A DNA stretch of 64,000 bases. Source: Taibaiella sp. (GTDB lineage: Bacteria; Bacteroidota; Bacteroidia; Chitinophagales; Chitinophagaceae). Below, piece after piece: positions 4,558-64,000 of the stretch; position 1 is the stretch's first letter; every line of letters starts with the position of its first letter. The notes beneath the pieces were generated by a model. That model was not told the DNA's origin. It ran no database searches and was given only the letters and a program-made list of their open reading frames with translations. The stretch covers positions 1-64,000 of the forward strand of contig JAIOYR010000002.1 of NCBI GenBank assembly GCA_021740995.1, read 5' to 3'. A program made the position numbers and the translations under genes.

Positions 4558-4634
4558 AATGTGAAAATGTGCTTAATGTGCTTAATGTGAAAATAGTGTG
4601 CTTAATGTGAAAATAGTGTGCTTAATGTGAAAAT
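4558..4634. repeat. 20-bp tandem repeat with a nearby inverted copy
   Basis: Two exact copies of a 20-bp unit (CTTAATGTGAAAATAGTGTG) lie at 4581-4600 and 4601-4620, followed by a partial copy at 4621-4634 and preceded by diverged partial copies from 4558. The reverse complement of a diverged unit (CACATTAAGCACATTTCCACACTATT, in part) is at about 4688-4713, overlapping the SPFH stop codon. The block fills the gap between the SPFH and ribbon-helix-helix genes. Transcribed RNA could fold into alternative long hairpins; the repeats could also be protein-binding sites. Confidence 0.85.
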
Positions 4635-4708
4635 TAAGTATTCTCCGGGTTGCCTTTTACGGGATTTCAGAAAAAATACCGGGGTTTCACATTAAGCACA
4701 TTTCCACA

Positions 4709-39465: not shown

Positions 39466-39990
39466 ATGCGTAAATTGAATTTCATTGCCGCTATTGTCTG
39501 CACCATGCTATTTGTGCAGTGCAGCAACGCACAGAATAAAAACAATACCAACATGGCTAATAACAGTAATAACCCGCACTACTCCCGCACAGACACCACC
39601 CGACTGAATGTACCCAACAGTGAGTGGAAAAAAATTCTGACAGGCGAGGTATATCATATAGCCCGCGAAAAAGGCACTGAATATGCTTTCAGCGGCAAGT
39701 ACTATAAAACGGATGTGAAGGGCACCTACTATTGTGGCGTGTGTGGCAACCCACTGTTCCGCTCAGGAGCCAAGTTTGCCAGCTCCTGTGGTTGGCCTAG
39801 TTTTTATGAGTCGCTGCGACCAAATAGTGTTATTTACATTCCCGACAATTCTCATGGCATGGTGCGCACAGAAGTGGAGTGTGGCCGTTGTAACTCTCAT
39901 CTCGGCCATATATTCGACGATGGGCCGCCACCTACAGGTCAGCGTTTTTGTATGAACTCAGCCGTACTTGATTTTGAAGCAGATAAATGA
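39466..39990 (+). CDS. msrB: Exported methionine-(R)-sulfoxide reductase MsrB
   Basis: A 174-residue enzyme that reduces methionine-R-sulfoxide in proteins. The N terminus is a lipoprotein signal peptide with lipobox LFVQCSN, so it probably acts in the periplasm, anchored to a membrane. The MsrB domain has two zinc CxxC pairs (YYCGVCGNPLF and VECGRCNSHLGHIF), the SSCGWPSFYE loop, and the catalytic region QRFCMNSAVLDF. The resolving Cys is in SSCGWPS. It stands alone, divergent from the photolyase gene: oxidative and UV damage genes lie side by side. Confidence 0.93.
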   Translation: MRKLNFIAAIVCTMLFVQCSNAQNKNNTNMANNSNNPHYSRTDTTRLNVPNSEWKKILTGEVYHIAREKGTEYAFSGKYYKTDVKGTYYCGVCGNPLFRSGAKFASSCGWPSFYESLRPNSVIYIPDNSHGMVRTEVECGRCNSHLGHIFDDGPPPTGQRFCMNSAVLDFEADK

Positions 39991-56840: not shown

Positions 56841-56889
56841 CACTTAAATAACAAAACCCGCTTTAACGGCGGGTTTTGTTATTTAAGTG
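56841..56889. terminator. Perfect 21-bp hairpin next to tRNA-Leu
   Basis: CACTTAAATAACAAAACCCGC (56841-56861) and its exact reverse complement (56869-56889) flank a 7-base loop. The inner part with T-run on both sides acts as a terminator for the nucleotidyltransferase gene and, in reverse, for the tRNA gene. The right arm touches the last two bases of the tRNA. Confidence 0.85.
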
Positions 56890-56968
56890 CGGGTGGAGGG
56901 ACTCGAACCCCCATGCCTCACGGCACTAGATCCTAAGTCTAGTGTGTCTGCCATTTCACCACACCCGC
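56888..56968 (-). tRNA. tRNA-Leu (UAG anticodon)
   Basis: Reverse-strand sequence begins GCGGGTGTGGTGAAATGGCA and ends in the complementary CCACCCGC plus discriminator A. The acceptor stem (GCGGGTG/CACCCGC) pairs; the D arm is TGGTGAAATGGCAGACA; the anticodon stem is CTAGA/TCTAG around loop CTTAGGA, so the anticodon is UAG, which reads CUA/CUG-type Leu codons. The long variable arm (about GTGCCGTGAGGCAT) is typical of Leu tRNAs, and GGTTCGAGTCC is the T arm. CCA is not encoded. Confidence 0.95.
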
Positions 56969-56969
56969 T

Positions 56970-57609
56970 TAGGGGACTGCAAAGGTAGGTAAAACGATTT
57001 ATAAACAATCATAGCATACCAAATATTTACCTTTAGCGTGTTAATGTTAGTTATGGGCCGGTTCTTCCACTACTTATCCACATTCTTTTTGTCGGTTGCG
57101 GCATTTATTATATGTGCATTATCTTTTTGTTAGCAGAACCTTAATTATTGTGGGTAACACTACTTCCTTGCCTGTATAACTTCTCTCTTCTCCGGCATTT
57201 AAGGTTTTATACATTTTGGTTCTTCTACTACCTCTGGTTTATCCTCATTAATCCACAACTAGCTACGATATTCACGTTCCTGTTTTTACCAACAACAACA
57301 GTTATTCACAATCCACAGTATTTCTGTTAGTTTGTAGCATTTTCAATACTCTATGGTGTTGATAAAGTCAGAATGATATGTGTATAAACTGAGTCATTGA
57401 CATTCGCAATAGGTGCTTCATTTTTTATTCCCCCAATCCCCACTCCTAATAGTAATAGTCTAAGTTTTTATAAAGATTTAGTTATTACTATTAAGGATGT
57501 GGAAAAGCTGGCTACAGGTCATCACTTTTTCAAATTGAATAATGTGGTACGGTATTTGTTGTATATTTTTGCACTGAATAATTTTCTCAATTACAGCCCC
57601 TTATTTTTT
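56970..57609. other. 640-base gene-free, AT-rich region before nadA
   Basis: No credible gene: a 60-residue frame at 57148 is composed of Leu, Phe, Thr and Tyr from T-rich sequence, and the upstream extension of nadA to 57397 has no family counterpart. The region contains the DnaA-box cluster. The nadA promoter should lie in its right part; no consensus box was found. Confidence 0.6.
57050..57510. other. oriC: DnaA-box cluster, candidate replication origin (oriC)
   Basis: The gene-free block between tRNA-Leu and nadA holds perfect TTATNCACA boxes at 57074-57082 (TTATCCACA), 57302-57310 (TTATTCACA) and, reversed, 57379-57387 (TGTGTATAA). One-mismatch boxes are at 57113-57121, 57149-57157, 57249-57257 and 57498-57506; a weaker CAATCCACA abuts the second. 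The block is strongly AT-rich, notably 57421-57490 (runs such as AATAGTAATAGTC and TTTTTATAAAG), which could be the unwinding element. parS-like sites and mnmG lie a few kb to the right. No dnaA gene is in view, which is common in Bacteroidota. The origin call is an inference. Confidence 0.6.
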
Positions 57610-58614
57610 ATGAATAGTATTTCTATGGATTCACTGGCAGAAAAAGGTTTTCTTGATATGGATGTAGATCCATCTCTTGACCTGTTTGCCGAGATAGAAA
57701 AACTGAAGAAAGAAAAAAATGCTGTGATACTTGCTCACTACTATCAGGAGCCGGATATTCAGGATATAGCAGATTATATAGGTGATAGTCTGGGTCTTGC
57801 ACGGCAGGCTGCAAAGACTGATGCGGATATGATTGTTTTTGCCGGTGTGCATTTTATGGCAGAAACAGCAAAAATTCTCAACCCAACCAAAAAAGTAGTG
57901 ATACCTGATTTGAAAGCTGGTTGCTCGCTGAGCGATAGTTGCCCGCCAGTTTTATTTCAGCAGTTCAAAGATAAATATCCTGATCATATTGTTATCTCTT
58001 ATATCAACTGCTCTGCAGCTATCAAAGCGTTGAGCGACATCATATGTACATCTTCTAATGCTAAGGCTATTGTAGATAGCTTGCCCGAGGATAAGAAAAT
58101 TATATTTGCTCCTGATAAAAATCTCGGTGCATACATCAATAAGGTTACGGGTAGAAATATGGTATTGTGGAATGGTGCATGTATGGTGCATGAGATTTTC
58201 TCGCTTGAAAAAATAACAAGATTGAAAGTAAGGCATCCAGAAGCAAAAGTCATCGCTCATCCGGAGTGTGAGGAACCGGTATTAAGAGTAGCAGATTTTA
58301 TAGGGTCTACTACGGCATTGCTTCAGTATACGCAGCAGGATAGTTCATCCGCCTTTATAGTGGCTACTGAGGCTGGTATACTGCACAAGATGATACAGAG
58401 TTCTCCGGATAAAACATTCATAGCTGCACCGCCTGACAATGCCTGTGCCTGCAACAATTGCCCGCATATGAAACGGAATACGCTGGAGAAATTATATTTG
58501 TGTATGAAGTATGAGCAACCTGTAATATTGATGGAAGAATCTTTGCGAATTGCAGCTAAACGTCCGATAGATAAAATGTTGGAAATTAGTGCGCAATATG
58601 GAATTGGTGTTTAA
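57610..58614 (+). CDS. nadA: Quinolinate synthase
   Basis: A 334-residue 4Fe-4S enzyme that condenses iminoaspartate with dihydroxyacetone phosphate to quinolinate in NAD synthesis. Cluster ligands: Cys in [14 protein letters not shown] (the first Cys is the ligand), NGACMVHE and [10 protein letters not shown] near the C terminus. [20 protein letters not shown] and [12 protein letters not shown] are family signatures. The frame is open back to 57397, but the ATG at 57610 (MNSISMDS) gives the usual length and leaves the DnaA-box region out of the gene. nadB and nadC are not in the window. It is the first gene to the right of the candidate origin and runs away from it. Confidence 0.95.
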
Positions 58615-61768: not shown

Positions 61769-61784
61769 TGTTTCACGTGGAACA
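61769..61784. promoter_or_regulatory. parS-like centromere site 1
   Basis: TGTTTCACGTGGAACA differs from the general bacterial parS consensus TGTTNCACGTGAAACA at one position. It is expected to be bound by ParB and to seed the origin-proximal partition complex. An identical site lies 821 bases to the right. Confidence 0.8.
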
Positions 61785-62209: not shown

Positions 62210-64000
62210 ATGTTTTCTGAATACGATGTCATTGTTGTAGGTGCAGGGCATGCCGGTTGCGAAGCTGCCGCGGCGGCTGCCAATATGGGTTCCAGGGTTT
62301 TGCTTATTACAATGAACATGCAGACCATTGCTCAGATGAGTTGCAACCCAGCAATGGGAGGAATTGCTAAAGGACAGATAGTGAGGGAGATAGATGCATT
62401 GGGTGGCTATAGTGGTATAGTCAGCGATAAGAGTACCATTCAGTTCCGTATGCTCAACAAGTCTAAAGGACCAGGAATGTGGAGTCCACGGTCACAAAAC
62501 GACCGTATGTTGTTTGCCGCTACCTGGCGGGAGATGCTGGAGAACACCCCTAATGTGGATTTTTGGCAGGATATGGTTAGCGGACTGATTGTTTCACGTG
62601 GAACAATTACGGGTGTTGTCACCGGAATGGGTCAGCGAATCATGGGAAAGTGCGTGGTGCTTACCAATGGAACCTTTCTGAACGGGGTGATTCACGTTGG
62701 TGAAAAGCAATTTGGCGGCGGTAGAATGGGCGAAAAAGGAGCTACCGGTATTACAGAGCAGTTGGTAGAGCTGGGTTTTGAGACCGCAAGGCTTAAAACA
62801 GGCACACCACCAAGGATAGATGGCAGAAGCCTGGATTATACCAAAATGGAAGAACAATATGGCGACGAAGAAGTAGTTGGCTTCTCTTATCTGCCTATTG
62901 AGCGAATAAAATCAAAAGAACAAAGGTGCTGCTGGGTAACCTATACCAGCCCCGAAGTACATGAAATATTGAAGACCGGCTTTGATCAGTCGCCTATGTA
63001 TCAGGGACGTATAAAGGGTAGTGGCCCCAGATATTGCCCCAGTATCGAAGATAAGATTGGCCGTTTTGCAGAAAGAGACAGACATCAGTTGTTTGTAGAG
63101 CCGGAGGGATGGAGTACTGTAGAGATTTATGTAAACGGATTCAGCACCTCTCTGCCCGAAGAAGTGCAGTACAAAGCACTAAAATTGGTGCCGGGTTTTG
63201 AAAACTGTAAGTTCTTCCGCCCCGGATATGCTATAGAATACGATTACTTTCCACCTACACAGCTTAGTTTCACCCTGGAGACTAAATTGGTACGTAACCT
63301 TTTCTTTGCCGGACAGATAAATGGCACCACAGGTTACGAAGAAGCAGCTTGTCAGGGTTTAATGGCAGGAATCAATGCTTCCCGCAGAGCCTCTGAGCAG
63401 GATCCTTTGGTCCTCAAGCGCAGTGATGCCTATATAGGTGTGCTCATAGATGACCTGATAAATAAGGGAACAGACGAGCCATACCGTATGTTTACCAGCA
63501 GGGCAGAGTATCGCACACTGCTCAGGCAGGATAATGCCGACTTCCGTCTTACAGAATTGGGACATAGTATAGGTCTTGCTTCTGACGAACGGTTGGAACT
63601 CATGAACGCTAAAAAGCAAAAAGTAGCAGAAATCAGACGTACACTCTCAGAATTTTCACTCGATGGGGCTACTGTGAATGGTTTTCTTTCAGATAATGGT
63701 TCTGCTGCTCTTACTGAAAAAACCAGAGCAGCCAAGCTACTGCTAAGACCGGGAATAGGACTCAAAGAAATGCTGACCGCGATACCGGCTCTGGCATCAG
63801 CTGTAGATGAGACCGACCCTCTGATAATAGAGCAGGTAGAAATTCAGATAAAATATGAGGTCTACATAGAAAAAGAGCAGGAATTGGTGGCAAAGATGGC
63901 TACATTGGAGCACCTGATAATACCTGATAAATTCAATTACGAAAAGCTATCGGCTATGTCGCTGGAGGCCAGGCAGAAACTAAGCAAAATAAGACCTGCA
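62210..64000 (+). CDS. mnmG: tRNA uridine-5-carboxymethylaminomethyl enzyme MnmG (3' end cut)
   Basis: 597 codons are in the window and about 25 are expected beyond its end. MnmG (GidA), with MnmE, makes the cmnm5 modification of wobble U34 in several tRNAs, using FAD. Marks: YDVIVVGAGHAGCEAA (FAD-binding GxGxxG), SCNPAMGGIAKGQIVREIDA, TPPRIDGRSLDY, GRIKGSGPRYCPSIEDKI, FVEPEGWSTVEIYVNG and AGQINGTTGYEEAACQGLMA. Nucleotides 62590-62605 form a parS-like site within codons for VSRGT. mnmG is near oriC in many bacteria. It begins 498 bases after the divergent barrel gene. Confidence 0.97.
   Translation, partial: MFSEYDVIVVGAGHAGCEAAAAAANMGSRVLLITMNMQTIAQMSCNPAMGGIAKGQIVREIDALGGYSGIVSDKSTIQFRMLNKSKGPGMWSPRSQNDRMLFAATWREMLENTPNVDFWQDMVSGLIVSRGTITGVVTGMGQRIMGKCVVLTNGTFLNGVIHVGEKQFGGGRMGEKGATGITEQLVELGFETARLKTGTPPRIDGRSLDYTKMEEQYGDEEVVGFSYLPIERIKSKEQRCCWVTYTSPEVHEILKTGFDQSPMYQGRIKGSGPRYCPSIEDKIGRFAERDRHQLFVEPEGWSTVEIYVNGFSTSLPEEVQYKALKLVPGFENCKFFRPGYAIEYDYFPPTQLSFTLETKLVRNLFFAGQINGTTGYEEAACQGLMAGINASRRASEQDPLVLKRSDAYIGVLIDDLINKGTDEPYRMFTSRAEYRTLLRQDNADFRLTELGHSIGLASDERLELMNAKKQKVAEIRRTLSEFSLDGATVNGFLSDNGSAALTEKTRAAKLLLRPGIGLKEMLTAIPALASAVDETDPLIIEQVEIQIKYEVYIEKEQELVAKMATLEHLIIPDKFNYEKLSAMSLEARQKLSKIRPA
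62590..62605. promoter_or_regulatory. parS-like centromere site 2 inside mnmG
   Basis: The same 16-mer, TGTTTCACGTGGAACA, lies in the coding region and is read as Val-Ser-Arg-Gly-Thr. Keeping a 16-bp palindromic word identical inside a gene suggests selection at DNA level. Confidence 0.8.

Follow-up and report, generated by a model that had tools for sequence, protein, structure and literature searches.

A probable chromosome replication origin beside nadA and remote from dnaA in Chitinophagaceae, with facing box-trio units

Introduction

In Helicobacter pylori two clusters of DnaA boxes flank dnaA at the replication origin (oriC), with one unwinding site. The basal unwinding system (BUS) of Bacillus subtilis is composed of the DnaA boxes #6/#7 together with DnaA-trios (Pelliciari et al. 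2021, PMC8287927). According to the excerpted text of that paper, a BUS was recognized by a box with at most two mismatches to TTATCCACA, a spacer of at most 16 bp and at least three NAN trios, and in >99% of genomes the screen kept just one candidate, the best, for each origin. Because only this single best candidate was retained, as the excerpts describe it, a second copy facing the first would go unlisted. The terms Bacteroid*, Chitinophag* and Flavobacter* are absent from the main text of the paper.

Searches of the open-licence PMC text returned nothing on a Chitinophaga replication origin with a DnaA box and nothing on inverted or both-sides DnaA-trios at oriC. The combination of DnaA-trio and Bacteroid gave only work on Medicago-Sinorhizobium nodules, as seen from titles and abstracts, and that of oriC, nadA and Bacteroidetes only papers unrelated by title.

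The DNA analysed here, called the window, is a stretch of 64,000 nucleotides from Taibaiella sp., corresponding to bases 1-64000 of the 119-kb contig C6 in an assembly of 3.91 Mb and 151 contigs. A first-pass annotation had placed a candidate chromosome origin between a tRNA-Leu gene and nadA. In this work, we present evidence that this gap is very probably the chromosomal oriC of a Chitinophagaceae bacterium, lying far from dnaA.

Results

The gap between tRNA-Leu and nadA (56969-57609, about 630 bp) is intergenic and, as previously described, AT-rich, with a G+C content of 34%. It contains all three perfect TTATNCACA boxes reported before (Table 1); boxes with one mismatch were also present as claimed, but there are six of them in 57050-57510, two more than the four originally counted. 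The three perfect boxes compare with 0.066 expected, and only 0.0002 of 5000 dinucleotide shuffles reached this number; boxes with at most one mismatch amount to 10 against 1.33 expected, a count found in 0/1000 shuffles. Within the 119-kb contig no place is denser than the gap, where 500 bp hold 10 boxes with at most one mismatch; next comes a cluster of six such boxes in 500 bp near 4568. In the latter region, positions 4568-4700 of the window, five copies of TTAAGCACA, one mismatch away from the DnaA box, lie within 133 bp.

Table 1. Positions in the window of the putative origin elements and of neighbouring features.
Feature	Position	Strand	Remarks
tRNA-Leu	56887..56968	-	ARAGORN; left neighbour of the gap
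DnaA box TTATCCACA, perfect	57074..57082	+	motif scan
DnaA box TAATGCACA, 1 mismatch	57113..57121	-	motif scan
DnaA box TTACCCACA, 1 mismatch	57149..57157	-	motif scan
Head-to-tail DnaA boxes TTATCCTCA (57239-57247) and TAATCCACA (57249-57257), 1 mismatch each	57239..57257	+	
DnaA box TTATTCACA, perfect	57302..57310	+	motif scan
DnaA box TTATCAACA, 1 mismatch	57357..57365	-	motif scan
DnaA box TTATACACA, perfect	57379..57387	-	motif scan
Putative left BUS, degenerate tandem boxes TTATTCCCC, CAATCCCCA	57425..57442	+	2 and 3 mismatches to TTATNCACA
Putative left BUS, spacer CTCC, 4 bp	57443..57446	+	
Putative left BUS, DnaA-trios TAATAGTAATAG	57447..57458	+	TAA TAG TAA TAG
AT-rich core between facing trios	57459..57481	.	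23 bp, 83% A+T
Putative right BUS, DnaA-trios TAATAGTAATAA	57482..57493	-	TAA TAG TAA TAA
Putative right BUS, spacer TCCT, 4 bp	57494..57497	-	
Putative right BUS, DnaA box TTTTCCACA, 1 mismatch	57498..57506	-	motif scan
nadA (quinolinate synthase)	57610..58614	+	PF02445, 2.2e-123; right neighbour of the gap
parS-like site TGTTTCACGTGGAACA	61769..61784	+	one mismatch; 4.3 kb from core
mnmG/gidA	62210..64000	+	PF01134, 1.9e-160; runs off the window; origin-proximal gene
parS-like site TGTTTCACGTGGAACA, inside mnmG	62590..62605	+	one mismatch; 5.1 kb from core

The most telling part of the origin evidence is the DnaA-trios, which the first-pass annotation had missed. On the reverse strand of the window, TTTTCCACA-TCCT-TAATAGTAATAA (57506 down to 57482) faces CAATCCCCA-CTCC-TAATAGTAATAG across the 23-bp core. 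When separate 40-bp stretches of the window are ranked by stability, the second least stable one falls in the trio region, and the fractions of window stretches less stable than the best one at the core were 0.0003 (40 bp), 0.0117 (60 bp) and 0.0148 (100 bp). When compared with the BUS rules as excerpted from the published screen, both units have a spacer (4 bp) well below the 16-bp limit and at least three NAN trios; the right box, TTTTCCACA, has one mismatch to TTATCCACA and lies within the two allowed, whereas the left boxes, with 3 and 3 mismatches, fall outside this limit and the Chitinophagaceae consensus within it.

That consensus, derived from 97 loci, reads TTaTCCaC-a-aATtCACA-gCC.-TAATAgTAATAG followed by AT-rich DNA; its second box, spacer and trios were themselves selection criteria, while the first box TTaTCC is independent of the selection. 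The pattern ATNCACA-N4-TAATARTARTAR with at most one mismatch was found in 122 of 147 Chitinophagaceae genomes, being absent from 25, as opposed to 34/147 for a control with the spacer one base shorter. The exact pattern occurs in 11/14 Chitinophagaceae members versus 1/381 other Bacteroidota sampled, and an exact search with the 3-base spacer gave 0/395 in the phylum. In the window's own assembly the pattern matches only twice, and both matches are the facing units described here. Among named records, some of which are the same genomes as in the Chitinophagaceae set, 25 of 26 loci titled Chitinophagaceae or Chitinophagales carry the pattern (at most two mismatches, no more than 800 bp upstream of nadA), the sole exception being L202, titled Chitinophaga pinensis; the same search found it in 0/19 nadA loci titled Sphingobacteriaceae. 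Four loci with Sphingobacteriaceae titles (L185, L188, L199 and L210) have two or three perfect boxes upstream of nadA without the BUS pattern. The link between nadA and the origin may be older than the Chitinophagaceae.

The DNA upstream of nadA was compared in 84 of the 131 Chitinophagaceae genomes with a nadA match (30 best-scoring, 14 complete, near-complete or of the same genus, and 40 others picked by hand), 82 of which offered enough sequence on that side to be counted. Between -700 and -50 of nadA these 82 genomes hold 109 perfect boxes, against 5 for the reversed motif and 3.7 (sd 2.1) in shuffles, and 22 of the 82 regions have no perfect box at all. The frequency of perfect boxes peaks from -500 to -100, where each genome has on average roughly 0.23-0.32 of them in 100 bp, versus 0-0.06 further upstream. 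Across 16 neighbourhoods, each 20 kb long, the richest 500 bp contain 5-16 boxes with at most one mismatch (at least seven in 15/16), and G141 is the exception, with its best 500 bp elsewhere; the maximum in 96 stretches from other places was five. In five genomes (G101, G001, G099, G031 and G125) there is at most one such box upstream of nadA, and for G031 and G125 the origin was not found.

Facing units were also searched for. A loose regular expression for a facing box, 4-bp spacer and trios matched 13 of 164 loci, 12 of them believable, including the window, and one (L025) discounted as chance. Facing units are also present in G005, on both strands, and at the displaced origin of G099 described below, while G101 and G001 show a clear facing box with its 4-bp spacer and weak trios. 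In the tree of NadA proteins a single clade of 12 rows takes in eight of the nine facing loci with full-length NadA, the window lying outside it. The spacing in the facing pattern CACA-N-TAATA over 73 loci was 4 bp in four cases and 6 and 7 bp in one case each, with none at 1-3, 5, 8 or 9 bp. A strict rule (box with at most one mismatch) found 4/100 distinct loci, as compared with 0.25 in shuffles (maximum 2), and a looser one (at most two mismatches) found nine of 100 versus 2.4 (maximum 8); since related sequences are counted, this excess is modest evidence. Two of the nine loci under the looser rule (L091 and L101) look like chance. We regard the facing arrangement as genuine, both in the window and in the relatives closest to it, and any function of it as putative.

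The GC skew was analysed in eight single-contig relatives, sampled round the circle as either 10 or 20 stretches, each 20 kb long. In all eight the half-circle to the right of the nadA site has a higher mean skew than the left one, and the contrast at dnaA is lower than at this site; no other split does better in six of the eight, the best position being offset in G116 and G085. In G085 (L267-L276) the skew is negative over about the first 0.3 of the circle to the right of the origin and then jumps, perhaps due to a large inversion. Pooling the stretches, 40/50 on the right are positive and 45/50 on the left are negative. Locally, over 9 kb, the right side is higher in 13/16 neighbourhoods, and 3/16 show no local rise. 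On the window's own contig the skew minimum near 57 kb named in the first-pass annotation did not appear: the cumulative minimum falls at the contig end, the mean skew being -0.023 on the left and -0.025 on the right. The local skew of this one contig out of 151 is uninformative and is not used as support.

The proposal that dnaA lies elsewhere proved correct. The window's genome carries it on contig C98, it is also remote from the site in the 17 relatives in which it was located, and the distance from the nadA site is 0.09-0.43 genome lengths in the eight complete relatives. An origin at dnaA was considered and discarded: the 43-kb C98 has one perfect box, at 39890, 16 kb from dnaA (~23355), and no comparable box cluster. 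Both parS-like sites mentioned in the annotation are present, each with one mismatch to the parS consensus, GTTTCACGTGAAAC. Moreover, of 17 origin neighbourhoods, each spanning 20-119 kb, 12 contain matches to this consensus with at most two mismatches, frequently in groups, and elsewhere there were three weak matches in 96 stretches (1.92 Mb). The mnmG gene shares a 20-40-kb stretch with the site in 11/16 relatives.

As for the surrounding genes, Pfam searches agreed with the names NadA, MnmG, T9SS-tailed protein, MgtE and LpxD, as well as with an ABC exporter and a beta-eliminating lyase; for nadA an upstream in-frame GTG start is possible. The orientation described around the gap also holds, with 33/47 long ORFs to the left of 57450 running leftward and 21/28 from 57450 to 100 kb running rightward. 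Beyond 100 kb, 0/9 long ORFs of the contig run rightward. This segment (C6:100001-119489; L076, L077) has a skew of -0.12 to -0.155, with 9/9 long ORFs leftward; either it is a genuine block of genes, or it results from a rearrangement or a misjoin. The tRNA-Leu was dropped as a conserved origin flank: no tRNA adjoins nadA in the 17 relative stretches scanned. In the NadA tree the window's protein clusters with those of G104 and G004 and not with that of its genus mate G097. The window's MnmG shares 85% identity with the G097 protein, versus 68-72% with the others; nadA may have been exchanged beside the origin.

Discussion

According to these data it is very likely that the gap is the chromosomal origin, since in the relatives the conserved boxes and BUS, the division of the skew, the parS sites and the remote dnaA all agree with the first reading of this locus. 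In the mechanism that we propose, DnaA would bind both the 57074-57387 boxes and the ones next to the trios, and would move from the double-stranded boxes to the single-stranded TAATAGTAATAG trios; the AT-rich core would melt, and two helicases would be loaded there and depart in opposite directions. ParB bound to the parS sites 4-5 kb away would then organise the new origins. The least certain step is the role of the facing units, which may allow the core to be opened from both sides. A fully symmetric origin, with convergent BUS modules, two DnaA filaments of opposite polarity and one helicase per strand, is a tentative idea that we consider rather doubtful. If it were true, such an origin would be two-way by construction, and an asymmetric second loading step would be unneeded. 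The facing units offer a natural test of helicase loading in opposite directions, which is an open question for origins with one trio tract.

The position next to nadA raises the possibility that the region serves that gene, with the boxes and the TAATAGTAATAG repeat controlling its transcription, either through DnaA or through some nicotinate regulator; the inverted repeat would then be an operator or hairpin. In 62/97 loci about 40-60 bp separate the end of the unit from the aligned start of nadA, and the AT-rich core could house a promoter. Among the exact matches listed, which covered 116 of the 122 genomes with the pattern, 62 of 68 are found on the nadA strand, no more than 350 bp upstream of this gene. 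Of the other six listed, four belong to genomes without a nadA match at E<=1e-80 (G073, G017, G115 and G131), one is the facing copy of G005 and one is in G101. In G101, G001 and G099 the unit stands away from nadA together with 7-8 boxes (at most one mismatch) in 600 bp, beside another gene, and in G099 it is about 2 kb from mnmG. That neighbouring gene encodes an ABC-transporter ATPase (PF00005; L289:1431-2981, L290:3367-4917, L291:5179-6726). The unit thus goes with the origin and not with nadA, and skew and parS point to the same place. Since the unit outlives nadA, we rejected a nadA promoter, and a regulatory region of this gene is an improbable explanation.

The first-pass annotation regarded denser clusters of DnaA boxes in other parts of the genome as evidence against its origin. 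Such clusters of perfect boxes are indeed present, but their place is between mraZ and purL, they lack the BUS and mraZ fits the skew worse. Among the 190 perfect boxes that could be placed, out of 197 in the assembly, five are found in 188 bp at C104:8715-8902 (L287) and four in 181 bp on C125, both exceeding the density of the three reported here. The gap could then be a secondary titration or regulatory cluster and the true origin lie elsewhere, for example at the C104 cluster. The boxes upstream of mraZ recur in the family: the 500 bp upstream in the 30 best loci (L293-L322) hold 41 perfect boxes, with at least one in 22/30 and none in a control stretch, and they keep steady places near -190 to -170 and -99 to -83. 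Nevertheless, the mraZ-purL clusters gave no BUS match, and in all eight complete relatives mraZ is 0.08-0.30 genome lengths from the nadA site and shows a lower skew contrast. A merely secondary cluster in the gap, with the origin elsewhere, is therefore very improbable; as they have no BUS match, the mraZ-purL clusters look like a regulatory or titration site, not an origin. The gene mraZ heads the cluster of division and cell-wall genes, and the MraZ operator consists of direct repeats spaced by 10 bp. The boxes upstream of mraZ may link DnaA to cell division or serve to titrate it; alternatively, they could be MraZ operator repeats, with the same letters read in two ways. Searches of the open-licence PMC text found no paper that brings mraZ, DnaA box and dcw together. 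The 5.8-kb contig C125 (L288) is a diverged repeat of the C104 region, with MraZ 85% identical, and, judging from its sequence, stems from another strain or species within the assembly.

That second copy, the draft state of the assembly with its contamination of 4.61% and the separation of the window's nadA from that of G097 would all suit a contaminant contig, or an origin that belongs to a plasmid, chromid or integrated element. Against this, the same locus is found in single-contig genomes of 2.8-8.4 Mb, a plasmid search gave no matching record, and mnmG sides with the genus mate as seen above, which makes such an explanation barely credible.

With the nadA-side gap as the chromosomal origin, the replication start of a whole and largely uncultured family would be fixed by a short pattern, ATNCACA-N4-TAATARTARTAR, that can be used on draft genomes. 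The re-orientation of Chitinophagaceae chromosomes based on dnaA would be wrong, and growth estimates from peak-to-trough ratios would need an origin point on the nadA side.

The kind of origin is already known, and the news is its place and the facing units. It is similar to other dnaA-remote origins situated near mnmG/gidA and parS, with mnmG no further than about 12 kb and parS no further than about 11 kb away in most relatives, and it differs from them in that its immediate neighbour in Chitinophagaceae is nadA. In contrast to the oriC of H. pylori, the facing units share a single gap, and dnaA is absent from it. The adjacency of DnaA boxes and DnaA-trios is shared with the bipartite oriC of that organism, as described in the excerpted text of PMC8235120. 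The closest likeness in arrangement is to the BUS of B. subtilis as excerpted from PMC8287927, with tandem boxes, a GC-rich gap of about 4 bp, NAN trios and adjoining AT-rich DNA; unlike the system described in those excerpts, the lineage of the window has a second unit facing the first.
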